In this document: positions 1 to 14,083 of the stretch, one piece after another
Position numbering within the stretch: the first letter of the stretch is position 1
Layout: each line of letters starts with the position of its first letter
Origin: Nitrososphaerales archaeon
GTDB lineage: Archaea > Thermoproteota > Nitrososphaeria > Nitrososphaerales > CADDZS01
Assembly (NCBI GenBank): GCA_030038075.1
Contig: JASHPO010000153.1
Coordinates: 1-55,358 of the forward strand
Direction: 5' to 3'
Length of the DNA stretch: 55,358 nt
Translations under genes and position numbers: made by a program
The notes under the pieces: generated by a model
The model's database searches: none
What the model was told of the DNA's origin: nothing
What the model saw: only the letters and a program-made list of their open reading frames with translations

Positions 1-233
1 CCCAGTATCTTAAGGCTCCCGTTCAGGGCTGGCTGCAAGCCCAATAGCATGCGGAATAGGGTTGTCTTCCCAGCACCGTTGGGGCCGATTACCGCCACGA
101 ACTCGCCCCGGCCGAACGAGAAGTTTGCGCCTTTCCAGACGACCTTCTCCCGGTAGCCCGCAGTGACATTTTCGCCGACAATGAGGTCGGAGCCCACTCC
201 GACCCCTGCCGTTCGCGCCTCGGTTACAGTCAT
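1..233 (-). CDS. Metal (Zn/Mn-type) ABC transporter ATP-binding protein, partial (N-terminus; runs off the window edge)
   Basis: Reverse-strand translation MTVTEARTAGVGVGSDLIVGENVTAGYREKVVWKGANFSFGRGEFVAVIGPNGAGKTTLFRMLLGLQPALNGSLKILG contains Walker A GPNGAGKTT; lies directly beside a ZnuA-like binding protein. Confidence 0.85.
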   Translation of the reverse strand, partial: MTVTEARTAGVGVGSDLIVGENVTAGYREKVVWKGANFSFGRGEFVAVIGPNGAGKTTLFRMLLGLQPALNGSLKIL

Positions 234-244
234 TTGGATATCTT

Positions 245-1276
245 CTAGTTGCCCAATGCTATGGAGTTCAGGCAGTTTTGCAAGCCAGCTACTTCGCCCT
301 CCTGCCAGGCTTGGAATGTAAGATAAGTTGGCTGTACCGTCTCGGAGACGAACGTGATTGGAATTTCGTACTGGCTGGCCACCACCTTCATCTGCTGGGT
401 GACGGGCATGACCGTCTGTATGTTGTAGACGAGGCAGCTATCCGATTCGTTCCCCAGTGAGAGCTGCTGCTCGAATGTGGCGATATCTGCTGGCGCCGGG
501 TCGTTCCCTTCGGCGACCGCGAACATGAAGGGGACAGGGGTGAGGATGTTTAGACCTGTTGCGTTCGCCAAGAACTGGACAATGCTTTCGGTCGCAGATA
601 TATTTACCCCACCCGAGTAGTCACGCAGTACTCCGCCCACGACTGTTGAACTGTTCCCACCGTAATGAACCCTCATTTGTTGCTCGGCCTGCATGTAGTC
701 TTGGTATAGCGACGCGTTCAAGCTTGCATAGTTCGCGGTGAAGTAAGCAGTATCTGTCGGGTCTATCTTCACAAGGGCGTTGTACATCGCGTGTACTGTG
801 TCGTTCACGTACCACGGGCTGTACCAGAGGTGGGGGTTTACCGTGGCGATTTGGGCGTCCGTGAGCCCAACTATTTGCTGCGCATCAAGGACGACCTGGC
901 CAGGGGTGTTGCTCGCATTTATCAGCAACGAGGCCCATGTGTCGTAATCCATCCCGTTGATTATGACCAGTTGCGCGTTCGCGATTGCAATTGCATCGGC
1001 TGGATTGGATTGATACTCGTGAGGGTCGGTGTTCGGGTCTGAGACGATGCTGGTTACGTTTCCGTGAACACCAGCGAGCTGCGACACCAAGCTACCCCAA
1101 AAGTTCTCGGCTGCCACTATTTGTATCGGCTTCGAGCTACCGGTAGCGACGGAGGTGTCAGTAGTGCCCACCGTGGTGCTGGTCGATGATTTGCTTGTTA
1201 TGTACAAACCTACTGCAACTCCGGCTACTAGGATTATGATAACGACAACGGCTGCGATTACATACGAATTTTTCAT
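245..1276 (-). CDS. Metal ABC transporter substrate-binding protein (ZnuA/TroA-like)
   Basis: N-terminal signal anchor, IQIVAAENFWGSLVSQLAG, DPHEYQ metal ligand motif, NPHLWYSP. Confidence 0.85.
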   Translation of the reverse strand: MKNSYVIAAVVVIIILVAGVAVGLYITSKSSTSTTVGTTDTSVATGSSKPIQIVAAENFWGSLVSQLAGVHGNVTSIVSDPNTDPHEYQSNPADAIAIANAQLVIINGMDYDTWASLLINASNTPGQVVLDAQQIVGLTDAQIATVNPHLWYSPWYVNDTVHAMYNALVKIDPTDTAYFTANYASLNASLYQDYMQAEQQMRVHYGGNSSTVVGGVLRDYSGGVNISATESIVQFLANATGLNILTPVPFMFAVAEGNDPAPADIATFEQQLSLGNESDSCLVYNIQTVMPVTQQMKVVASQYEIPITFVSETVQPTYLTFQAWQEGEVAGLQNCLNSIALGN

Positions 1277-1538
1277 GTTTCAATCTTCTCTGAAATTAAG
1301 ATATTTCATGGAATTATTGGAATATTAATAAAGATTATTCTAAGTTTATTAATTTAATTATAACGCGTCGAATTAGGAATAAATGGTAATCAGCTAAGGA
1401 AAGTTTCTGATTTTGACCTCTGGACAAAATAACTAATCTCCTAATCTACAGAAGGAGTAAATTATTCCAAGTGGACTAGAGTTTATCTCTAGTATAGGAA
1501 AGTTGTGGGGGAAATAGAACGATGATTTTGCTATTCGC

Positions 1539-1958
1539 CTATTTTCTGTTTTCGAACATTGCGGCGAAAGGTCTTGCATCAAATACAACCCTTATCGATC
1601 CAATTTTCCCGCCCTGAATATGGTACCACTCTGCGGTGAAGGAAGTAGCTGGAGGATTGCTGGTGATCAGATCGTACATTAAGCAAACATCGTCCCCGTC
1701 AACGAAGACCTTTTTCATTTCCACGCCCTTTACAATATGATGGAGCATCTCTAGATCTTTGAGAAGTCCTTCAGGTTTGTCGTGCGAGGCGAGCGGACCC
1801 TTAAAGGAAAAGTCGTCGCTCATGAGGGTTCTCGCGGTCTTGTAATCCTGGTTTCCCAGAACTCTTTGATACGACATCACAATATCCTTTGGACTAGAAG
1901 CCATAGAGATCAAAACCTTCGGTATCCAAAGGATACTATTTAACCCCAGTAGGGTCAA
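1539..1958 (-). CDS. SnoaL-like/NTF2-fold protein
   Basis: SPKDIVMSYQRVLGNQDYKTARTLMSDDFSFKGP ... TAEWYHIQGGKIGSIRVVFDARPF pattern. Confidence 0.65.
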   Translation of the reverse strand: MTLLGLNSILWIPKVLISMASSPKDIVMSYQRVLGNQDYKTARTLMSDDFSFKGPLASHDKPEGLLKDLEMLHHIVKGVEMKKVFVDGDDVCLMYDLITSNPPATSFTAEWYHIQGGKIGSIRVVFDARPFAAMFENRK

Positions 1959-1970
1959 AAAGGATAGTAT

Positions 1971-2429
1971 CTATTTCTTGTTCTGGGCAAGCCAAGCTTT
2001 CTCTTCGGGAGTTGGCGTCAGCTTCACTCCAGACATCCAGAGAAAAGTCCTCGAGCTTGATTCCCCAAAATGATGAAACCTCGATTGCAGATCGCCTTGG
2101 AGTGCATCTTCATTCCGCTTGAATGACTGTAGATACGCACGGAACGACCCGAATTCCTTCACTACCTTGAGAAACTCCTTTGCATTTTCTATCGTAGACA
2201 GTACTTTCCTCCCATTTCTGACGATACCCTGATCATGCATCAATCTGTCGATGTCTGTGTCGTCAAACTTTGCTACTTTCTTGATGGAAAAGTTTGCAAA
2301 AGCCTTTTTAAAATTCGGCCACTTTGTTTCGATCATCTTCCAGTTTAGACCCGCTTGGAAAAGCGCATGGGTCATTCTTTCGAAATACTCGTCGTCGGTT
2401 TGAGCGGTAGTCCAATCATCATTGGGCAT
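1971..2429 (-). CDS. DNA-3-methyladenine glycosylase I (Tag-like)
   Basis: DDEYFERMTHALFQAGLNWKMIETKWPNFKKAFANFSIKKVAKF...GIVRNGRKVLSTIENAKEFL is Tag-family-like. Confidence 0.75.
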   Translation of the reverse strand: MPNDDWTTAQTDDEYFERMTHALFQAGLNWKMIETKWPNFKKAFANFSIKKVAKFDDTDIDRLMHDQGIVRNGRKVLSTIENAKEFLKVVKEFGSFRAYLQSFKRNEDALQGDLQSRFHHFGESSSRTFLWMSGVKLTPTPEEKAWLAQNKK

Positions 2430-2438
2430 ATGTTTTCA

Positions 2439-2835
2439 CTAACTCCGTTGACGCGGTGCGTCTTCCCGGCAGGCAAGAATCGGCCCTCCGGGAATTCTAA
2501 ACCAGAAGAAACTTCCCATCTCGGGAACGTCAACGCGCGGCAGGACAATCTCTCCCCCTGAGGCTAAAATTCGCTTCTCAACTTCCTAAATTTTCAACCA
2601 AAACGTAGTTCATGCTGATAGGTGGTTCGTTGGGATTTGTCTTTCTTATGCTACCTTGCGATCCTCCTTGAGTCTGGTAAGATATCAACGCTCCTTGTCG
2701 AGTTTCCAAACTCTCGAAATGCCAGCCGAATACATGATCGAGAAAATTTCTTGTCGCGACTGGATCGGTACTCGCAAGTTCGGTGTGGGCGATCATCCCA
2801 ATTACGCGATTCTGCTTCCTCTCTTCCTGATCCAA
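2439..2835 (-). pseudogene. VOC/glyoxalase-family protein, split by one frameshift near 2588
   Basis: ORF 2578-2835 (MIAHTELASTDPVATRNFLDHVFGWHFE...) ends early; a second frame immediately downstream reads EKRILASGGEIVLPRVDVPEMGSFFWFRIPGGPILACREDAPRQRS*, the expected VOC C-terminus. Confidence 0.75.
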
Positions 2836-2904
2836 TTCCGGAATTCGGCCGAGAGAAATCTGCAGATATTATTTAAATCAAATAGGGACTGAAAGGATAG
2901 TCCC

Positions 2905-3273
2905 ATGCAAAAATTGATGGATAAAAGGCGGGCAGTCACTCCGAGACTCGCCTATCAGGCGGACCCGATAAGGGAGAGCTTGAAACTGTTGGGGAGAAAG
3001 TGGACTTTGCTCATTATCAGGGATATCGCATTTTTGAAACTTCGGAGATTTGGAGAAATTTTGAAGAATAATCCCGGTTTAACTCCTCGAGTCCTGTCGA
3101 GACGCCTGGATCAGATGACGGAGGCAGGTGTGCTCAAGAAGAGTGACGAGTCGAACAAGGGGTACTATCTCACTCCAAAGGGAGAGGACGCTGTCTACAT
3201 TTTGCTCGCAATATTGCGGTATGGCATCAGGCATCATTTTAGCAAAGAGAAGGGCGACGCCACGGTCAGCTAA
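2905..3273 (+). CDS. HxlR-family winged-helix transcriptional regulator
   Basis: PIRESLKLLGRKWTLLIIRDIAFLKLRRFGEILKNNPGLTPRVLSRRLDQMTEAGVL is the classic HxlR pattern; divergent from the VOC gene. Confidence 0.9.
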   Translation: MQKLMDKRRAVTPRLAYQADPIRESLKLLGRKWTLLIIRDIAFLKLRRFGEILKNNPGLTPRVLSRRLDQMTEAGVLKKSDESNKGYYLTPKGEDAVYILLAILRYGIRHHFSKEKGDATVS

Positions 3274-3583
3274 GATATAGCTATCGGAGCTCTTCAGTAC
3301 GACATTCCCGGAAAGAATCAATCGAGTTAACTGCCAAAAATTCCTCTAATTTTTAAGGGACACCAACGACCTTCTCTCTGAAATCTTTTGCGAAAGGGAG
3401 TACAGCTGGTAATTTGCCCGAAATGTTCTAACGCATTTCCTATCGAGAAAATTTTGGAACATCTCGCTTCGCACTCGACCGAAACTTTACCGAAGCATGT
3501 CGAACATGAATCGGGATCGGCTGGAGGCTGATTCCCTTCTCAAAAGGAAGCCTTGAATATAATGGGATAATGAAGAGTTCTGT

Positions 3584-4882
3584 TTGAATTCGCTTGATAA
3601 TTTTCTGACCGATATCGAGTCGGAGGAAGTTTCCCAAGAAGACAGGGAAAAGTTCGAGAAATGGCTTTCGAAAATACTCGCGGACCCGGAGCAAATTTCG
3701 TCGAAGATAGAAGATGCCCTAAAGCAGGGGATGTTTTCTGAATGGGAGAAAGAGTCTGTAAATCACAAGTTCAAGCTTGGATCGTACTATCCCAGCGTCA
3801 TCGAAAGGTGTCTCAGGCAGCAAGCGTACTCATATCTTTACGCTGAACCGCCTTCGCCAGAGGAACTAGCAATTTTCAACGAAGGAAAGGCGATTCACGA
3901 GCTCGTCGCCTTCGCCCTGAGACGATCTGGAATTATTTCGGTTGAAGGTAGCGAAGTCGTCGTCGATTTGATTTTCAATGAAGAAGTAAAGCTCCACGGG
4001 AGGATCGACGACCTTCTTCTGATTCGACTAAGCGAGGAAAGTAACAACTTCAAACTGTTCGTTCCTCTGGAAATCAAGAGCGCTTCCGTGATGCCGGACG
4101 AGCCGTGGCGCACACATTACTATCAACTTTCGACTTACCTCCTCGCGGAGAATTATCCTATGGGAGTGCTCCTATACTGGATCAAGAGGGAGGGTAAGGT
4201 GAAGGCGTTTCCGATCACGAAGGACGATACCATGCGCGCTGTCCTAAGGGAGCGAGTCTTGGAACTGCACGAGGCTCTAAAAAATGGAACTTTCCCCATG
4301 AAGGAAGCGGCGTCCAATAAAGACTATCTCCAGTGCGAGCGCTGTTCCTACATCGACAGATGCAACCCCTATCTCATAGACTCGATTCCGAAGGGGTCGA
4401 AGCTTTCTGTGTTCGATCTTGACGGCACTATACTGGATACCTCGCAGAGGAAAAGAACCATCTTGCAAGAACTCGGTCTTCCGCCATCTGCGAAGACCAC
4501 AGACATCCACGATGAGGAGACAAACAGGAAGTACTGGCAGTTGATGGACAATCCGAACTATGTAGAGTTGGACAATTTATATGACCAGGCGAGGGAGAAA
4601 GTATTTTCGGAGGCGAAACTGGGTAGAATCCCTGTTGCGATTTCTTCGGGCAGACGTGAAACTTTGCTTGAGGCGACCAAGGCTCGCTTGGCAAACTTGG
4701 GTGTCCCGCTGTTCCACCTAATACTGAGAGAAGCGGGAAACTATGAGACCGATGGCAAGTTCAAAACAAAATGGTCTCAAAGGCTCGCCTCGAATTACGA
4801 GCTCGTTGAGTTTTTCGATCGCGACGCTGTTCTTAGCTCGATGATAATGAAGACGGTCAAAGAGCGGCAGGCGAAGACATAG
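3584..4882 (+). CDS. Cas4-like PD-(D/E)XK Fe-S nuclease fused to a HAD-family phosphatase domain
   Basis: N-half: GKAIHELV, RIDDLLL, LEIKSAS, QLSTYLL, and Cys set (VIERC... CERCSYIDRC). C-half: HAD motifs FDLDGTI, ISSGR, K (FKTKW), EFFDRD. TTG start. Confidence 0.8.
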   Translation: MNSLDNFLTDIESEEVSQEDREKFEKWLSKILADPEQISSKIEDALKQGMFSEWEKESVNHKFKLGSYYPSVIERCLRQQAYSYLYAEPPSPEELAIFNEGKAIHELVAFALRRSGIISVEGSEVVVDLIFNEEVKLHGRIDDLLLIRLSEESNNFKLFVPLEIKSASVMPDEPWRTHYYQLSTYLLAENYPMGVLLYWIKREGKVKAFPITKDDTMRAVLRERVLELHEALKNGTFPMKEAASNKDYLQCERCSYIDRCNPYLIDSIPKGSKLSVFDLDGTILDTSQRKRTILQELGLPPSAKTTDIHDEETNRKYWQLMDNPNYVELDNLYDQAREKVFSEAKLGRIPVAISSGRRETLLEATKARLANLGVPLFHLILREAGNYETDGKFKTKWSQRLASNYELVEFFDRDAVLSSMIMKTVKERQAKT

Positions 4883-4920
4883 TAAGGCAGTGTAGGTAGC
4901 CATCAAAGGGGGAATATTAC

Positions 4921-5166
4921 GTGAAGAGATTAAGCGTAGAGGGAATTCTGCAGAAGGACTTGGATCTATGTGTCGATACGATAGCAGCGATCCAAGACTG
5001 GGCTAAAAAGGAAAAAGTAGACAGATGGGCGTTCAGGGCGGCGCTGCTGAAGGCGCTTTTCGAGGACGCTGAAAATTACTTCGAAGAGACCAAGGGAAAT
5101 TACAGGGAGATTGCAGCCTTTGATAATGGTGTGGCTAATACTCTCGATTCGTTAAAAGAATCCTAA
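4921..5166 (+). CDS. Small helical hypothetical protein (81 aa)
   Basis: GTG start 38 bp after the Cas4-HAD stop, same strand; likely co-transcribed. Confidence 0.6.
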   Translation: MKRLSVEGILQKDLDLCVDTIAAIQDWAKKEKVDRWAFRAALLKALFEDAENYFEETKGNYREIAAFDNGVANTLDSLKES

Positions 5167-5193
5167 CAGAAATTTGCAAGTTATCTACGGGGC

Positions 5194-5778
5194 CTAGGGT
5201 TTCTTCGTCAGTTTCGCGCCTCCATCAGGCAAACTGACTAGGTGCTCAGAAAATAGACTTCTTATCGAGGCGATGACTTTGCTGTCGTGTATACCACGGG
5301 TCGAGAGAAACATCGATGTTACGTTCTGACCTCCGAGAACTTCATTCGCGTTTTTTAGGAACTTGTATGTTGCTTCAAAGCTGGAAGAGATAAGCATGTC
5401 AGATATGCTGTCGATTACAATGGCGACGCATCCCCCTCGAGAAGACCCTATAGCTTTGCTAATTAGATCGAGATTAATTGCGGAATCGTTTTGCGGCACC
5501 AGCACTTCGTTCTGCTGGGCTCCCTTCTTTGGATAAGAAACAGTGGGGGTTGAAATGTAAAATGTAACCGAGCTCATGTTCGAAAGTAGTTTGTATACTG
5601 GACTGCTCCTGTGTGTAAGGATGTAGACTGCGCAACCATCTTTCAAAAGTTCATCTACGAAATCTCTCACAGCTTTCTCATACGGTGACGACGAATCCAC
5701 TTCAAGAAGGAATGATCTTCCGCGAAGAAAGTTTGGAGCCTCACCAATCTGTTTAGAAAACAGGGTTGGCGAAGGCAC
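5194..5778 (-). CDS. KaiC/RecA-like protein lacking a recognisable P-loop
   Basis: FLLEVDSSSPYEKAVRDFVDELLKDGCAVYILTHRSSP...GCVAIVIDSISDMLI (Walker-B-like) ... but no GxxxxGK[ST]. Confidence 0.55.
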   Translation of the reverse strand: MPSPTLFSKQIGEAPNFLRGRSFLLEVDSSSPYEKAVRDFVDELLKDGCAVYILTHRSSPVYKLLSNMSSVTFYISTPTVSYPKKGAQQNEVLVPQNDSAINLDLISKAIGSSRGGCVAIVIDSISDMLISSSFEATYKFLKNANEVLGGQNVTSMFLSTRGIHDSKVIASIRSLFSEHLVSLPDGGAKLTKKP

Positions 5779-5981
5779 AGGCTCCCCTTAGACTCTACTG
5801 TCAGAGTCTTAATATGACTATGCGAACGCTAAAACATCAACGGGTTTTTTTGGACCCCTAGCCCACTGATAATTTATCGCAGATAGAAAAGTAGTGATAA
5901 AAATTCTCTGAAATTGGTGAAAGCGAGAAGAATTAGAAAAAAGTGACGGACGCCTGTTGTGGCATCCATCTCTATGTCATG

Positions 5982-6119
5982 TTAGTTACTTCCCGGCCCG
6001 CCTATTTCATCAAGCATCGGTGGTCTGAGGCTTAGGTGCCCGAAGTGTGCAGCTACGACAACTGCTGAGACGACCGAGAGAGCCAACATTCCTAGTCTGA
6101 TTTTTTCATCGGTTGACAT
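5982..6119 (-). CDS. Single-TM small membrane peptide (45 aa), not in the ORF track
   Basis: Reverse translation MSTDEKIRLGMLALSVVSAVVVAAHFGHLSLRPPMLDEIGGPGSN*. Confidence 0.5.
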   Translation of the reverse strand: MSTDEKIRLGMLALSVVSAVVVAAHFGHLSLRPPMLDEIGGPGSN

Positions 6120-6210
6120 GGCGGCAAAAGATTAAATTCACTTACCGAAAAGTTTTTCGGTTTCACAATATCCTTATATCTAAATAGCTAAATATCTAAT
6201 ACTCTTTATC

Positions 6211-6271
6211 CTCTAATGAGCTCCATCGGAATATGGAGGTTCACCTCTATCTTTTGGATAAACCATTAGAG
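6211..6271 (+). other. Candidate structured RNA: three-helix junction
   Basis: P1 CTCTAATG(6211-6218)/CATTAGAG(6264-6271) encloses P2 CTCCAT(6221-6226)/ATGGAG(6233-6238) and P3 GTT(6239-6241)/AAC(6261-6263) with TATC(6248-6251)/GATA(6257-6260). TATA-like CTTATATCT ~35 nt upstream. Confidence 0.35.
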
Positions 6272-6413
6272 AGATTTTACAAAAAGTCTGTTAGTATGCA
6301 GAAGTGTGTGAGGGGGTCGTGAAAATTACCATGCAAACTATTAATTGGAAGCTAACACAGCGTTCTGAAAGCAAGGATAATTAACGGTTCGTAAAACCAA
6401 GGATGCCAGCGAA

Positions 6414-7526
6414 ATGAGGATACCCGCGGATAACGCTGCCGAGTTCCTTACGAGGATAGTTCCCTTCATAGATTCTGACGGAGCGAGGAATTTGAATGCC
6501 ATCTGCCGCGATCTCTCCATCCCTTACCAGACTCTCAGATTCAGAATGAACAGACTGAAACAGCAGGGGATCAGTGTCCTTCCTCTACTGGACATCGACA
6601 AGTTAGGGCTTCAAAGGATAAGGGCATCGTTCGGGCTTGCTCGTGACATACAGAATCCAAAGGCGATTCTTGGGGGACTTCATCAGAAGGCGGGTTTGAA
6701 GGCCTACACGAGAGTCTTTTTCAGTCAAGAGTTGGATTGTGAGTTTTTGATCCCAAAAGGATCCTTGAAAGAATTCGCCAAACTTCTCCGAGCCCTTGAG
6801 GAGATGAAACTCATAGAAAACATCGAATACAAACCCATTTTGTGGAAGAGAGTGTTTATGATGAGAACAAAGTTCTTCGACTACGAGTCGGGCGAATGGG
6901 ACGTAGATTATTCGAGGCTGGTCGGGGATCCTTCCGCAGCTGTTCCGAAACCTTGGACAGAAGAGGCAAAATTCGATTACAACGACCTCCTTATCATCAA
7001 ATCCCTGGAAATGGATCCGTGGATCAAAGTAGTTGATCTGGCCAGGAATCTCAAGCTTCCAGTTGGGGACGTGTCCTACCATCTTAATCGGCATGTTATC
7101 GGGCGCAAATTGATACCTTCATTCAGGTTGAGGTGGATTGGAACAAAGGAAGCATGGTCGAAGCACTCGTTGGTCGTGCAGTCATACGTTTTCGACAAAC
7201 TCTCTGACGAAGATATGAGGCACGCAATGTCCGTAATGACCGCCGCACCATTCACTTGGGACGATGAGCTCGCCGATGATGGAACGTACTATGCGGATGT
7301 CCTGATTCCACTGTCTCAATTCCCGGAAACGCAGAATTATATTTCTGAGAACCTGAGGCAAGTAGGCCTAAGGCCGCGAGTTCTTTCGGGCGACTGGTCT
7401 CTAATTTCTCTGTTTACAATCCCGTACACTATGTTCGAGAAGGGAATAGGATGGGCGCTTGACGCTGAAACGGGTCTAGGGTACGTACTCCAAATGATTA
7501 GTCAGTACGACAAACCGAAAGCTTGA
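6414..7526 (+). CDS. Tandem HTH (Lrp/AsnC-like architecture) regulator
   Basis: Two HTH-like segments (LNAICRDLSIPYQTLRFRMNRLKQQGI and WIKVVDLARNLKLPVGDVSYHLNRHVIGRKLI) each followed by an alpha/beta region. Confidence 0.6.
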   Translation: MRIPADNAAEFLTRIVPFIDSDGARNLNAICRDLSIPYQTLRFRMNRLKQQGISVLPLLDIDKLGLQRIRASFGLARDIQNPKAILGGLHQKAGLKAYTRVFFSQELDCEFLIPKGSLKEFAKLLRALEEMKLIENIEYKPILWKRVFMMRTKFFDYESGEWDVDYSRLVGDPSAAVPKPWTEEAKFDYNDLLIIKSLEMDPWIKVVDLARNLKLPVGDVSYHLNRHVIGRKLIPSFRLRWIGTKEAWSKHSLVVQSYVFDKLSDEDMRHAMSVMTAAPFTWDDELADDGTYYADVLIPLSQFPETQNYISENLRQVGLRPRVLSGDWSLISLFTIPYTMFEKGIGWALDAETGLGYVLQMISQYDKPKA

Positions 7527-7620
7527 GACACTGGCCTGCGAATAAGCCTCCAGTCACTCTTTTTTTATGAGTGAGAGGACACCAGCCTTCTATAATTCGG
7601 TGTCCCTCCATTGGACTGCT

Positions 7621-7950
7621 ATGTCATTAACGCAACAACAGGTCCAAACCGCCTCGGTTGATGATGAGATAATTTCATGTGTAGATAGAGGCCTAGAGTC
7701 AGTGGGACACCACGTCAGAAGTGCAGTCTACTGGCATCTCGAGAGAATGGGTCACATTAGCAAATTCGAAATTCCAGAAAACCCAGAAGCATTCATTCAG
7801 GGCTTGCGAGCAGTTTTCCGGGAAAGTTCGGCTGGTGTAGAGAGAGCTATTTTGCAGGAAATCAGTGCAAAGTTCGAGCTGAACTATTCAAACGCCAAGG
7901 ACTTGGTCGAGGCGATATCTGAACTTAAAGCCAAGTCCATCGGCCAGTAG
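7621..7950 (+). CDS. Hypothetical protein (NTP-independent helical; start at 7621 preferred over 7567)
   Basis: Intact ORF MSLTQQQVQTASVDDEIISCVDRGLESVGHHVRSAVYWHLERMG... Confidence 0.55.
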   Translation: MSLTQQQVQTASVDDEIISCVDRGLESVGHHVRSAVYWHLERMGHISKFEIPENPEAFIQGLRAVFRESSAGVERAILQEISAKFELNYSNAKDLVEAISELKAKSIGQ

Positions 7951-8088
7951 TCCATTTTTATCTTGCTGATTAGGGCGACCGCACGCCCGAGGTCTAGGCT
8001 GGTTTACTAACTAGCCCAACGGCAAGTGCATGTTTAAATATGCTCGGCAGACTAATCCTATAGTTTGTTATAGCCAGGTGAACAATTG

Positions 8089-8301
8089 ATGGAACAACAA
8101 TACGCGATATCGGCGGCCAGAGTCGAAATTTGCCAATCCTGTGGAAACAGCTTTACTCATCAGGGATATCTTGACCATCTCTTTGCAAACAAGGAATGTA
8201 TGCGCAGATATTGGGAAGACGAGGAAAAAAATCATATCTCTCGATTGAGGCAGAGAACATCGAGAGGAAAAGCAAAGATAAGCGGTATTTCTGAACAGTG
8301 A
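8089..8301 (+). CDS. Small zinc-finger protein
   Basis: CQSCGNSFTHQGYLDHLFANKEC: C-x2-C-x(n)-H-x(n)-C zinc-finger-like. Confidence 0.6.
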   Translation: MEQQYAISAARVEICQSCGNSFTHQGYLDHLFANKECMRRYWEDEEKNHISRLRQRTSRGKAKISGISEQ

Positions 8302-8373
8302 GATCTTTTGAAAGGGCTCTGAGTAGTCCAAGATTCCTCAAGAATGTCTAAATCTCTGTCAGCTGTCTACTGA

Positions 8374-8526
8374 ATGATGGGATCTTCGGCTCAGACTGAT
8401 ATCTGCACCTGCGAGACCTGCAAGCACTACAGGGCTACGGCCTGTTATGAAAATAAATGCCGATGCTGTAGCGAGATAGACGCCGAGAACCTGAGCACTT
8501 ATGCGGACGATGAGATGAGGGATTGA
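8374..8526 (+). CDS. Cys-rich small protein (50 aa), not in the ORF track
   Basis: MMGSSAQTDICTCETCKHYRATACYENKCRCCSEIDAENLSTYADDEMRD*: CxCxxC...CxxxxCxCC. Confidence 0.5.
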   Translation: MMGSSAQTDICTCETCKHYRATACYENKCRCCSEIDAENLSTYADDEMRD

Positions 8527-8793
8527 CTCATTTCTTTTGCTTCAAAGCGCTTTGATTAGCGTTACTGGATCTATCTTTTGATGCTGAGACAGCATGTAGT
8601 GAACTGAACTGATGTAGGAATAAACTAATCGATATGTAAACTGATTTTATCATAAATACAATTCTCCCCTTCTGAACGGAGTCTATTCGATTTGCTACCT
8701 ATTGATAATTCCTCACTTGAGATAGAAAAATGCTCATCTTGCACCATAACCCGTATATGACGTATTCCGGGAGCAGTCTTTTGTTGATCTGCC

Positions 8794-9120
8794 ATGTCAC
8801 GCCTTTTAGCATTCGTGGACATTTTCGTCGAGTCTCCTCAGATGGACGAGGTTGTCCAAGAACTTCAGAAACTTCCTAACATGGAAGAACTATACGAAGT
8901 CACCGGCGAATTTGATATCGTTTCTTTGGTTTCTGCCGCAGATATCGAAGAATTCAGAGATATTTTGAAGAACAAGATAATGAAAATCAAGGGAGTCAAG
9001 AGTACGGTCAGCTCCGTCGTGCTGCACTCGCACAAGGGGCCTCGATGCTCCACGAACGGTAAAGAAGTTTTGAGCGCTGCAGCGACCATCCGTTCTTCCC
9101 CAGCGGCCAGTCTTCGCTGA
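8794..9120 (+). CDS. Stand-alone Lrp/AsnC ligand-binding (RAM) domain protein
   Basis: AFVDIFVESPQMDEVVQELQKLPNMEELYEVTGEFDIVSLVSAADIEEFRDIL...IKGVKSTVSSVVL; no HTH. Confidence 0.85.
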   Translation: MSRLLAFVDIFVESPQMDEVVQELQKLPNMEELYEVTGEFDIVSLVSAADIEEFRDILKNKIMKIKGVKSTVSSVVLHSHKGPRCSTNGKEVLSAAATIRSSPAASLR

Positions 9121-9223
9121 GATCTTTCTCAGTGGTTTCAATTGGGCACGAGAATCCTAGGATTTTGACTATTCATGTCAAAGCCCTTCCTAACCTGAAT
9201 GCAGTCGGTGCATAGAGCGCTGA

Positions 9224-10912
9224 GTGTCTTTGATATCGCCACTTCAGGTACTAGACCTGATAATAATTCTAGCAGTTCTAGTTGCATGCGCTTGGCTACT
9301 GGCGCCTTACATCTCTAACGTATTCAAGAGAACTCCGAGCAAGATAGACAGAGTTTTCAATCCTATTGAGAATCTGATCTACAGGGTCACCGGTGTCGAC
9401 CCGAATCACACGATGGGTTGGAAAGAATACTTTCTCTCTGCGCTTATCCTGAACATCGTCCAGATGGCAATCGCAGCCGTGATTCTGACCTATCAAGGGT
9501 CGCTGCCGCTTAATCCGATGCACTTTCCAGGGTTGTCTTGGGATCTCACCTTCAACACCGTAGTTTCAATCGCCACAAACACGAATCTCCAGCACTACGC
9601 TGGCGAAGTCTCGCTCTCCTACCTGAGCCAGATGAGCGCGATCCAGTTCCTCCAGTTCACCTCTGCGGCGACCGGAATTTGCTGTGGAATTGCCATGGTG
9701 AGAGGACTTGTGCTTCACTCGAAAGATCTCGGAAACTTTTTCGTGGATTTTGTCAGGGCCCTGACTCGGCTACTCATTCCCCTGTGTTTTGTAGCGGCTC
9801 TGATTCTAGTCGCGCTTGGAGTCCCGCAGACTATATCGGGTTACGCTACCGTCAAGACAGTCGAAGGAGCAACGCAGACAATTCTCGTTGGTCCCGTTGC
9901 CTCACTCGTCTCGATCATGCAGTTAGGAACAAATGGTGGCGGGTACTACGGCGCGAATTCCGCTTATCCGTTTCAAAACCCGAGCCCCGAATCAGACCTC
10001 GTCGAAATATTCATGATGCTCCTCTTACCAACGGCACTATGCTTCGTCTTTGGTGACTACATCGGTAAGAAGAAGGAGAGCTTACCGATAATCGTTGGAG
10101 CCTACGGTCTGTTTGCTATAGACCTCGCGATTGCGTTCATACCGAATCCGATTCTAGTCGGTCCAGGGCTGGAAACAAGGTTCGGCGGCTTCATGTCAAC
10201 CTTCTGGACTGTCGTCACAACAGCAGTCACCACGGGATCGGTAAATTCGTCTCTTTACGGTATGCATCCGCTTGCTATACTTGCTGCTTTCATGGGTATG
10301 TTGATCCAGTCTACACCGGGCGGCAAGGGAGTGGGACTCATGTATATGCTCATGTACATTATCATCACCATCTTTATAGTGGGGTTGATGTCCGGCAGAA
10401 CGCCCGAATATTTGGGCATAAAGATCACGGGACGCGACGTCAAGCTAGTGATGCTAGCATTCCTAATCCATCCTCTCATAATCATAATTCCAACGGTGAT
10501 AGCTTACGCGGCAAACCAGGTCGCGCCTCTGGGAATAGGCAGTGGCTCGATCGCCTTTACTCAAATTTTCTACGAGTACGCGTCGTCCGCAGCAAACAAC
10601 GGTTCCGATTTTCTTGGAACGACTGCAAACACTCCGTTCTTCAACGTCTCAACTGCAATAGTGATATTCTGTGGAAGGTACGGGCCGATTTCCTGCCTTC
10701 TCGCCCTCGCGGGTTCAATGCTAGGAAGAAACCGTGCCACTACGAGTCCTGCAGCAATCAAGACTGCGAGCTTTCCATTTTCGATTGTTTTGATCGCGAG
10801 TATTCTGATTCTAGTTGTTCTGACATTCTTTCCGTTCCTCGCCGTGGGGCCGATACTCGCATACTTCCAGGGCAATACGAACTTTTTCGGAGCAATAGCA
10901 GGAGTTCTTTGA
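9224..10912 (+). CDS. kdpA: K+-transporting ATPase subunit A
   Basis: NTNLQHYAGE, LGTNGGGYYGANSAYPFQNP, SAANNGSDFLG selectivity-filter-like repeats; GTG start. Confidence 0.95.
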   Translation: MSLISPLQVLDLIIILAVLVACAWLLAPYISNVFKRTPSKIDRVFNPIENLIYRVTGVDPNHTMGWKEYFLSALILNIVQMAIAAVILTYQGSLPLNPMHFPGLSWDLTFNTVVSIATNTNLQHYAGEVSLSYLSQMSAIQFLQFTSAATGICCGIAMVRGLVLHSKDLGNFFVDFVRALTRLLIPLCFVAALILVALGVPQTISGYATVKTVEGATQTILVGPVASLVSIMQLGTNGGGYYGANSAYPFQNPSPESDLVEIFMMLLLPTALCFVFGDYIGKKKESLPIIVGAYGLFAIDLAIAFIPNPILVGPGLETRFGGFMSTFWTVVTTAVTTGSVNSSLYGMHPLAILAAFMGMLIQSTPGGKGVGLMYMLMYIIITIFIVGLMSGRTPEYLGIKITGRDVKLVMLAFLIHPLIIIIPTVIAYAANQVAPLGIGSGSIAFTQIFYEYASSAANNGSDFLGTTANTPFFNVSTAIVIFCGRYGPISCLLALAGSMLGRNRATTSPAAIKTASFPFSIVLIASILILVVLTFFPFLAVGPILAYFQGNTNFFGAIAGVL

Positions 10913-10913
10913 C

Positions 10914-13118
10914 TTGAGCGAAATGACAACATCGTCAGAGAACAAAAAGAACGAAAGTCCAGTTAGGATTGGTCTATTCTCAAAACAAGTTTTCGCCAAT
11001 TCGTTGGTTCGCCTGAGCCCCATCTCTCTGCTCGCAAACCCGGTTATGTTCATCGTTGAAATAACATTCTTCATCGTCGCAGCGATGGCAGTGGTCCCGC
11101 AACTATTCTATCCTGTTGCCAGTTCCTCGGAAAGGGTCTTCTACGTCGAGGTTGCGTTGATACTACTAATCACGGTGTGGTTTAGCACACTTTCAGATTC
11201 CATTGCAGAAAGACAGGCAAAATCGACTGCGAACAGCCTGCGCGCTTTCGAAATCGATGTTGTGAGCAAGAAAATCGTTGTCGGCAGTGACCGTTCAAGA
11301 TCTGTAGTCTCCACACGGGCATCTGAGCTCCGAAAGGGAGATCTGATCTCGCTTGAGAAAAGCGATCTCGTGCCAATTGACGCAGAGGTTATGGAAGGCA
11401 TAGCAATGGTGGACGAGTCTCTCCTCACGGGCGAGTCAACCCCGGTTCGCAAGGCGCCGGGAGACCAGCTGATCGGCGGATCAAAGATTGTGAGCGACAC
11501 TCTGACCGCCAAAGTCTCAGTCAACCAGGGCGAGACTTACATCAATCAGATGATAAAGCTCGTAGAAGCTGCAAAGAGACCAAAGACCCCCAACGAGCAA
11601 GCGGTCACGATAGTGCTCATCGGGTTGACTGCGATCTTCACAATAATGATCGTTGGTCTGCTCGGACTGTCCATCACTCTTAGCTTGGGCGCGGATCTCT
11701 CGGTATTGATAGCGCTCTATGTCTGTCTTCTTCCAACTACTATTGGAGCTCTGTTACCGGCAATCGGTCTGTCAGGCGTGTCGAGGTTGTATGAGCACAA
11801 GATTGTGGCAAAATCCGGCAAGTCGATCGAGACTGCGGGCGACACCGATACAATACTCCTCGACAAGACCGGCACGATCACGGTAGGGAATAGGCAGGCT
11901 ACGCAATTAATTCCGTTCAGTGGTCACAGCGAAAAAGAGGTTGGCGAAGCAGCATTTCTCTCTTCATGGCACGATGACACTCCCGAGGGAAGAAGCATAA
12001 TCCGTCTCGCATACGACCGCGGGTTCATCCCCAAGGAAATGAATGCGCTGGATCAAGCCGAAGTGTACGAATTTTCAGCAACTACGAGAACCAGTGGTGT
12101 GAAGCTTCCCAGCCCATCTTTGTTCCAGCTTCCCAAGGACGGGGGCAATTCCACGGGCAGAGGCAGCCGCTCGAGGTTCAGACGCAAGTACGCGGACGAA
12201 GCCCTTGCAGAATTTGTTGATTACAACGTGACACCAGGCTCGCCTCCTCATGACACCATCGAGATTTTAAAGGGCGCACCCGATTCCATAAGGAAAATCG
12301 CGCTCAATGTTCCTGAGAACTTTGACAGCGCCGTTGAAAGTATCGCCTCGACGGGAGAAACGCCGATCGCAATAGCTAAGAATCGAGAAGTTTTGGGCCT
12401 CATAAGACTCAAGGACGTATTGAAACCCGACATCAAAGAGAAAATTATCGCCGTCAAGACAATGGGAATAAAACCAATCATGATAACTGGGGACCAGCCT
12501 CTAACTGCGAAGAACATAGCGGCAGAGGTCGGTATAGATGATTTTGTCTCCCGCGCAAAGCCTGAGGACAAACACGAGATTGTCCTTAAGGAGCAGGAGG
12601 ATTCGAGGATCGTAGCTATGATAGGAGACGGTACAAACGATGCGCCTGCCCTGGCCGCTGCGGATGTGGGACTGGCCATGAATTCCGGCACGCAGGCAGC
12701 AAAGGAAGCTGCAAACATGGTCGACATGGAATCAAACCCGGCGAAGATAATCGACGTCGTGATGCTTGGAAAGCAGCTCTTGATGACGCGCGGGGCGGTC
12801 ACTACTTTCAGCATCGCAAATGACGTTGCGAAGTACTTTGCCATAGTGCCCGTGCTCTTTGTCGCTTACCCGCAGCTGCATGCCCTAAACATCCTGGGAC
12901 TGGGACTCCACAGCGCGGTGCTTTCCGCCCTGATTTTCAACGCGATAATAATCCCGCTGCTCATTCCGCTTGCGATGCGAGGAGTAGCCTTCAAGCCGGC
13001 GAGCACTATGGCCATTTTCCTGAGGAACACTCTGGTCTACGGATTCGGCGGGGTGGTAGTTCCATTTGTTGGAATCAAACTCATCGACCTCCTGCTAACG
13101 GGCGTGTTTCACGTTTAG
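10914..13118 (+). CDS. kdpB: K+-transporting ATPase subunit B (P-type ATPase)
   Basis: LLTGEST, LLDKTGTITVGN, DTPEGRSI, MITGDQPLTAKNIAAEVGIDDF, MIGDGTNDAPALAAADVGLAMNSGTQAAKEAANMVD. Confidence 0.97.
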   Translation: MSEMTTSSENKKNESPVRIGLFSKQVFANSLVRLSPISLLANPVMFIVEITFFIVAAMAVVPQLFYPVASSSERVFYVEVALILLITVWFSTLSDSIAERQAKSTANSLRAFEIDVVSKKIVVGSDRSRSVVSTRASELRKGDLISLEKSDLVPIDAEVMEGIAMVDESLLTGESTPVRKAPGDQLIGGSKIVSDTLTAKVSVNQGETYINQMIKLVEAAKRPKTPNEQAVTIVLIGLTAIFTIMIVGLLGLSITLSLGADLSVLIALYVCLLPTTIGALLPAIGLSGVSRLYEHKIVAKSGKSIETAGDTDTILLDKTGTITVGNRQATQLIPFSGHSEKEVGEAAFLSSWHDDTPEGRSIIRLAYDRGFIPKEMNALDQAEVYEFSATTRTSGVKLPSPSLFQLPKDGGNSTGRGSRSRFRRKYADEALAEFVDYNVTPGSPPHDTIEILKGAPDSIRKIALNVPENFDSAVESIASTGETPIAIAKNREVLGLIRLKDVLKPDIKEKIIAVKTMGIKPIMITGDQPLTAKNIAAEVGIDDFVSRAKPEDKHEIVLKEQEDSRIVAMIGDGTNDAPALAAADVGLAMNSGTQAAKEAANMVDMESNPAKIIDVVMLGKQLLMTRGAVTTFSIANDVAKYFAIVPVLFVAYPQLHALNILGLGLHSAVLSALIFNAIIIPLLIPLAMRGVAFKPASTMAIFLRNTLVYGFGGVVVPFVGIKLIDLLLTGVFHV

Positions 13119-13131
13119 AAGTGTTTGAGAT

Positions 13132-13599
13132 TTGAGCGAAAATACGACTCCAAGAAAGAACAAGTATGCGCCGATAATCGGGATTGCGATAATTTCTCTT
13201 CTGATATGCGGCCTTTTCTTTCCGCTGCTTATAACTGGAATTGCTCAGGCTACAATGCCATACCAAGCGAACGGAGAGATTGTAAAGCTGAACGGCGTGC
13301 CGGTGGGTTCTAACCTCATAGATAATAACTTTACACTGCCGATATTTTTCCACGCCCGCCCCGCCAACGAATCGGCTTCAGGAGTCGATCCAGACATTAC
13401 TATGCCTGAAGCCTATTCACAGATCCCTGGAATCAGCAACGCCACAGGAATTCCATCTTCGGCTCTGACGGCCATAATCAACAGTCACGAGAGAGGGACA
13501 TTCTGGATATTCGGTAGCCCATACATCAATGTCTTACAGGTAAATCTGATATTGATTAACGACTATCCGGCAGTATACAGCAACTTTACGAATTCGTGA
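13132..13599 (+). CDS. kdpC: K+-transporting ATPase subunit C
   Basis: Position after kdpB; N-terminal TM; FFHARPANESASGVDPDIT motif; short (155 aa). Confidence 0.9.
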   Translation: MSENTTPRKNKYAPIIGIAIISLLICGLFFPLLITGIAQATMPYQANGEIVKLNGVPVGSNLIDNNFTLPIFFHARPANESASGVDPDITMPEAYSQIPGISNATGIPSSALTAIINSHERGTFWIFGSPYINVLQVNLILINDYPAVYSNFTNS

Positions 13600-14083
13600 T
13601 TTTTGCGTCGGAATATACGCTCGCAACTACTACGCCAGTCATGACGTAATTTATTGCATACAAACTAATACAAACGGGGCATACCGCTTGGACTTTTTCC
13701 CAGATCAGAATGTCGAGGGACCACAAGTAAATTGTGAACATGTCTCCGATCAGAATAATTGGTATTAGCAGTAGCTTCGACCTGTTCCACAACACCAATC
13801 CTGAAACTAACATTAGCGGAAACCACACGACGCCGAGAAACCAGAATGGGATTACCGTATGTCCGATGACAATCGTCGTGTAGCCTGTCTGGAAAACCAA
13901 GCCGCACGAGATGTGCTTGTTGAGGTTGCAGTATTTGAATACCTGAGTTAGTTCCGAGTATGCGTGATATGCCGCATCAAGAATCCCAGCAGCTGCAAGA
14001 ATCAAGTAAATCCTGAAAGCGATCTGCGTCCTTTTCTCACCCGCTTTGCTCTCGTCAGGCGAAGGGTTTTCCTCTCCGGACAA
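13586..14083 (-). CDS. Vitamin K epoxide reductase (VKOR)-family protein
   Basis: Multi-TM with CNLNKHISC and CPVCISLYAINYV redox motifs; convergent 14-bp overlap with kdpC. Confidence 0.85.
   Translation of the reverse strand: MSGEENPSPDESKAGEKRTQIAFRIYLILAAAGILDAAYHAYSELTQVFKYCNLNKHISCGLVFQTGYTTIVIGHTVIPFWFLGVVWFPLMLVSGLVLWNRSKLLLIPIILIGDMFTIYLWSLDILIWEKVQAVCPVCISLYAINYVMTGVVVASVYSDAKITNS

Follow-up and report, generated by a model that had tools for sequence, protein, structure and literature searches.

The window analysed here, a 55,358-nucleotide stretch that makes up one whole contig of a 2.6-Mb, 170-contig archaeal metagenome-assembled genome (86% complete, 5% contamination), encodes a Cas4-like nuclease with a predicted Fe-S cluster and a PNKP-type HAD domain in a single chain of 432 aa. 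Profile and fold searches bear out both halves of this fusion, which had been proposed in an earlier note along with the open reading frame that encodes it (table 1). Our main reading, to which we give roughly one chance in two, is that the gene is a single-copy, chromosomal, non-CRISPR solo-Cas4/RecB-like (iron-staple) nuclease fused C-terminally to a compact PNKP-type HAD 3'-phosphatase, and that the protein trims ends. The TTG start agrees with the conserved N-terminus of the orthologues, S-L-D-N-[FY]-[LF]. An AF2 model of the full-length fusion was only fair (pLDDT 77, pTM 0.49, with its minimum around the cysteine segments), and for this reason we left the relative placement of the two domains uninterpreted.

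Table 1. Features of the fusion gene and its neighbours, in window coordinates; residues are numbered along the fusion protein.
Feature	Position	Strand	Match or conservation
Methyladenine DNA glycosylase gene	1971-2429	-	Pfam Adenine_glyco, 1.4e-29
Fusion gene, 432 aa, TTG start	3584..4882	+	Orthologous full-length fusions, 57-68% identity, in the window's family
Cas4/RecB-like PD-(D/E)XK nuclease domain, residues about 38-262	3695..4366	+	PDDEXK_1, PHROG 1706 and SSO0001 Cas4 matches
Cys76, N-terminal cluster cysteine	3809..3811	+	Invariant
Catalytic motifs RIDD (140-143), EIK (163-165), QLSTY (181-185)	4001..4138	+	D, E, K, Q and Y invariant in fused and nuclease-only members
C251-x2-C254-x5-C260, three C-terminal cluster cysteines	4334..4363	+	Invariant
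PNKP-type HAD domain, residues ~270-432	4391..4879	+	Pnkp1 profile, PHROG 415, AF2 and T4 Pnkp fold match
HAD motif I, D278-x-D280	4415..4423	+	D-x-D in 8/8 family members having the segment
HAD motif II, S-S-G-R (354-357)	4643..4654	+	S355 and R357 kept in 7/7
D390-x3-K394 element, common to PNKP-type phosphatases	4751..4765	+	D/E and K kept in the family and nearly all stand-alone relatives
HAD motif IV, F-D412-R413-D414, atypical	4814..4825	+	R413 position is Asp in 22/22 stand-alone relatives
81-aa co-oriented gene, without family, genus-restricted	4921..5166	+	Window genome (G000) and G001 only, among 31 genomes
Gene earlier called degenerate RecA/KaiC	5194-5778	-	Sub-threshold DUF835/DUF7090 matches

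The nuclease half retains the residues of characterised Cas4 proteins

The fusion protein matched Pfam PDDEXK_1 above the cut-off (E=6.6e-8), and its nuclease half matched PHROG 1706 at 2e-20. Among PDB sequences, a profile made from ten nuclease sequences found the Cas4 protein SSO0001 (PDB 4ic1) at 2.9e-9, and a Foldseek search of the PDB with the AF2 model of the fusion returned 4ic1 at 8.7e-7. The curated Cas4 cut-offs were not reached: TIGR00372 matched the nuclease domain at 1.5e-9, yet scored 37.9 bits against a cut-off of 65, and PF01930 had no match in the window genome. The PD-(D/E)XK landmarks and the cysteine set that had been read from the sequence are all present and proved to be invariant across the family. 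H105, D142, E163, K165, Q181 and Y185, as well as C76, C251, C254 and C260, are unchanged in all aligned fused members and have equivalents in the nuclease-only members. The arrangement of one N-terminal cysteine and a C-x2-C-x5-C segment is the Cas4-type four-cysteine pattern and predicts an Fe-S cluster.

SSO0001 contains an Fe-S cluster and degrades ssDNA exonucleolytically in the 5'-to-3' direction (PMC3466216), and mutants in the D, E, Q/K and Y motifs of two other Cas4 proteins had nearly abolished activity (PMC4176176). Because the residues required in characterised Cas4 proteins are invariant here, we infer with good reason that the fusion protein is probably an active nuclease. It was also said to lie outside any CRISPR context, and this agrees with our searches: window positions 1-14000 hold no direct repeats, and the window genome (86% complete) yielded neither Cas1 nor another Cas4. 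The fusion gene thus has none of the cas1/cas2 genes or repeats nearby that mark a CRISPR-associated Cas4. Since the window genome yielded no Cas1 and the surroundings of the fusion no repeats, we rejected a role in CRISPR adaptation there.

Cas4-like proteins were also seen in three other families of the same order, numbered f2, f8 and f9 (L026:5363-6124, L028:5685-6437, L029:5093-5842 and L117); family labels of this kind are arbitrary numbers, not named taxa. The f2, f8 and f9 proteins keep the cysteines and have apparently lost the E-x-K motif (e.g. MFRTAEELP), which suggests Fe-S proteins that may be devoid of catalytic activity and are retained in neighbourhoods they share.

PNKP-type is the best label for the HAD half

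Pfam HAD models matched the C-terminal half below their cut-offs (HAD_PNKP, 19.1 bits versus 27.6), and HAD_PNKP likewise stayed under its cut-off on a stand-alone relative (18.4 bits). A profile of fused and stand-alone HADs found Pnkp1 (4xrp) at 1.7e-11; VSP, a plant storage protein, followed at 2.7e-9. The HAD half matched the polynucleotide kinase family PHROG 415 at 7e-10, and polynucleotide kinase was the name carried by its best PHROG matches. Structure prediction, which the earlier note had named as a check on the HAD fold, was confident when this half was modelled alone (pLDDT 93, pTM 0.85). The top PDB fold matches were a mixture of VSP, T4 Pnkp, Pnkp1 and other HADs, with the highest TM-score by target length (0.72) belonging to the T4 Pnkp 3'-phosphatase 5uj0, and in the viral library BFVD many of the matches were phage polynucleotide kinase phosphatase domains. 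With profile, PHROG, fold and viral-library matches pointing to PNKP, 'PNKP-type' describes the HAD half best, although the superfamily also includes acid phosphatases and nucleotidases that resemble it closely.

All four HAD motifs had been reported in this half. Motifs I and II, K394 and D412 are indeed present and conserved, and D278, D280, S355, R357, K394, D412 and D414 were kept in seven of seven full-length sequences of the window's family, with D390 kept in six and replaced by Glu in the remaining one. The protein therefore has the HAD fold and the D-x-D, [ST]-x-R and Lys of PNKP-type phosphatases; what did not hold was a regular motif IV, in which R413 takes the place of the second residue of the acidic pair. 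This substitution speaks against our main reading. The HAD half of the window protein is 47-59% identical to those of its family relatives, and amino-acid-changing sites evolve about 1.5 times faster in this half than in the nuclease; synonymous sites were saturated in nearly all pairs, which makes dN/dS unusable.

The fusion recurs and its HAD half decays in related families

The fusion was present in eight of the nine genomes of the window's archaeal family. Full-length orthologues occur in six of the eight other genomes, the G002 copy breaks off after 291 residues where its contig ends, and no fusion was found in G008, a genome that is 67% complete. A same-genus genome, SubAcS9-71, belongs to a heterotrophic terrestrial thaumarchaeote (PMC10640624). 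Orthologous fusions were found in four further families, f17, f21, f24 and f68, the last of them outside the class. When genome contigs were scanned with a single sequence nothing was retrieved, while an alignment-based scan gave 10 loci. A scan of viral contigs with the fusion alignment revealed no relative, and we rejected a viral origin on this ground.

The catalytic residues of the HAD half differ between these families. D-x-D is kept in f17, which has no acid at motif IV. The nucleophile is lost in f21 and f68, where motif I reads E-x-D, and in f24, where it reads S-x-D. In f20 the HAD half is unrecognisable and has no motif, in f22 only the nuclease remains and the HAD domain is absent, and f19 has stand-alone HADs without a nuclease. 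HAD matches of any kind occurred in 62 of the 398 genomes sampled from the phylum, and the stand-alone nuclease and stand-alone HAD did not consistently co-occur. Two HAD proteins (L153:1102-2601 and L090:4963-5859) showed a different HAD architecture, with C-terminal extensions of roughly 130 and 320 aa that look alike near their start.

In the nuclease tree, which was midpoint-rooted, all fused, HAD-decayed and f22 nuclease-only members formed one clade (98/94), within which f20 and f22 fell together with f21 and f24, which are fused (89/97). The HAD tree, also midpoint-rooted, was poorly resolved, with long branches and the fused HADs split; a single clade of fused HADs was not rejected (p-AU 0.506). 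As the nuclease tree unites fused, decayed and nuclease-only members, the pattern agrees with a single ancient fusion, after which one family (f22) lost the HAD domain and in another (f20) it decayed. Two independent fusions were rejected on the nuclease grouping and the p-AU value. TATA-binding-protein and signal-peptidase-like genes, recognised by eye from sequence, are found close to the gene in both f20 and f21, and this shared neighbourhood is consistent with vertical inheritance of the gene.

These changes give some standing to the reading that the HAD half has little or no catalytic activity and has a role in structure, DNA binding or dimerisation instead, in which case the protein would work as a solo-Cas4-like nuclease only. 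Catalytic residues are changed or lost in most fused lineages, f22 lives without the HAD half, motif IV shows the D-to-R change in the window's own family, and the HAD half evolves faster than the nuclease. Against this, D278, D280, R357, K394 and D412 are retained in all seven full-length members of the window's family despite the divergence of this half, a degree of conservation that exceeds the needs of a structural role. We consider a dead HAD half a serious alternative, though a rather doubtful one.

Gene neighbourhood and remaining alternatives

We found no conserved partner and no conserved DNA-repair operon around the fusion. The co-oriented 81-aa gene, put forward earlier as a possible partner, had no Pfam, NCBIfam or PADLOC family match; it is 54% identical in one same-genus genome and absent from all others of the 31 searched. 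We rejected it as a general partner because of this restriction. The neighbouring gene described as a degenerate RecA/KaiC protein exists, but it had sub-threshold matches only and is not a conserved neighbour.

The 3-methyladenine DNA glycosylase gene of the window lies a few genes from the fusion. L023 has a longer homologue of this glycosylase close to its own fusion, and L019 carries a 6-O-methylguanine methyltransferase within a few genes of it. Stand-alone HADs adjoin uracil-DNA glycosylase, or are one gene from it, in four of four f19 loci (L086-L089), and adjoin 6-O-methylguanine methyltransferase in two other lineages; they also adjoin many unrelated genes. Directly beside the stand-alone HAD in all four f19 loci is an uncharacterised gene of ~122 aa. 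Overall, the gene context weakly supports a role in DNA repair.

Some of the genes adjoining stand-alone HADs belong to nucleotide metabolism (dCTP deaminase, adenylate kinase, read by eye, and a phosphoribosyltransferase), as would suit an exonuclease whose HAD half dephosphorylates the released mononucleotides, for salvage or to make degradation irreversible. The resemblance of the HAD half to class B and plant acid phosphatases (VSP 4fyp came first by fold E-value, and AphA was matched) and a match to a phage deoxynucleoside-5'-monophosphatase point the same way. However, D390-x3-K394 aligns with the D-x3-K of Pnkp1 and not with VSP, where Gln replaces Asp, and the best-matched phage families are named polynucleotide kinase. 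A mononucleotidase is thus unlikely.

Pnkp1, the best profile match, is part of an RNA repair complex, and the two f17 genomes have the tRNA-modification gene tiaS, encoding tRNA-Ile2 agmatinylcytidine synthetase, immediately upstream of the fusion (L024:2207-3559, L025:2786-4138). The protein might on these grounds trim and heal broken RNA, e.g. tRNA. This we regard as improbable: the substrate of characterised Cas4 nucleases with the same motifs is DNA (PMC3466216, PMC4176176), tiaS adjoins the gene in f17 only, and we recognised neither a ligase nor a methyltransferase as a partner next to the fusion.

Finally, the metagenome-assembled genome to which this contig belongs has some contamination, but an assembly or binning artefact joining two genes, an error that the earlier note had named as a possible refutation, can be dismissed with near certainty, as orthologous fusions occur as single open reading frames in many independent assemblies from several projects, including the single-contig 1.59-Mb f21 genome G066.

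Proposed function

In our main reading, a nuclease fused to an end phosphatase, the N-terminal half would degrade or resect single-stranded DNA ends with a divalent metal. In the window lineage the C-terminal half would strip 3'-phosphates, or terminal phosphates of a similar kind, from these ends or from others close by, which would make them usable by a polymerase or ligase. The phosphatase activity of the HAD half and its 3'-end specificity, drawn from the family label and the retained residues, are less certain than the nuclease activity. A two-step, coupled end-processing enzyme is plausible in the window lineage, with the coupling putative.

Because the HAD nucleophile is gone in three sister families (f21, f24 and f68) and the motifs are absent in another, the nuclease is the conserved core and the HAD half an accessory, inactivated or lost in several relatives. 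Since sister families have kept the protein while its HAD half decayed, retention of the protein does not depend on coupling of the two activities. The families f22 and f20, where the HAD domain is absent or decayed, the stand-alone nucleases without a HAD and the stand-alone HADs without a nuclease likewise speak against strict coupling.

More tentatively, the fusions may represent an undescribed bifunctional archaeal family that joins a Cas4-like Fe-S nuclease to a 3'-phosphatase of the PNKP type in a single chain, is old enough to occur in several families of Nitrososphaeria and in one or more further families of Thermoproteota, serves the repair of DNA breaks or base-excision repair independently of CRISPR, and later lost the phosphatase lineage by lineage; we think this broader proposal possible rather than probable. 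Our search, which covered the open-access literature, turned up no account of a Cas4-HAD or Cas4-PNKP fusion, a result that by itself does not establish novelty.

Comparison with known systems

The component domains are known, and their combination here is a variant. Solo-Cas4 proteins are widespread in archaea and their cellular role is open (PMC5704561). A solo-Cas4-like nuclease joined to a DNA or RNA end phosphatase, if true, would hint directly that at least this branch serves end processing and not CRISPR adaptation. The gradient of the HAD half within one orthologous family, from mostly intact through loss of the nucleophile to unrecognisable and absent, makes this family useful for probing whether nuclease and phosphatase activities are really coupled.

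SSO0001 shares with the window protein the RecB-like fold, the D/E-K/QxxxY motifs, one N-terminal and three C-terminal cysteines, and a gene located away from CRISPR. It differs in having no HAD domain, and the two nucleases show ~20% identity in structure alignment and only distant profile similarity. To the Cas4 family (TIGR00372, PF01930) the likeness is significant across the nuclease domain, whereas the window protein falls below the cut-off, is HAD-fused and comes from a genome in which no cas1 was found. The stand-alone PNKP-like HADs of Thermoproteota (L086-L090, L153-L168 and L170) belong to the same HAD family by profile; unlike the fusion, they are mostly single-domain, with a full catalytic set and a motif IV of [DE]-D. 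Compared with the T4 Pnkp 3'-phosphatase (5uj0, 1ltq) and bacterial Pnkp1 (4xrp), the window protein is without a kinase domain, is fused to a nuclease and has D-R-D in place of the acidic pair of motif IV, but it shares with them the HAD fold and the D-x-D, [ST]-x-R and D-x3-K elements in the same order.
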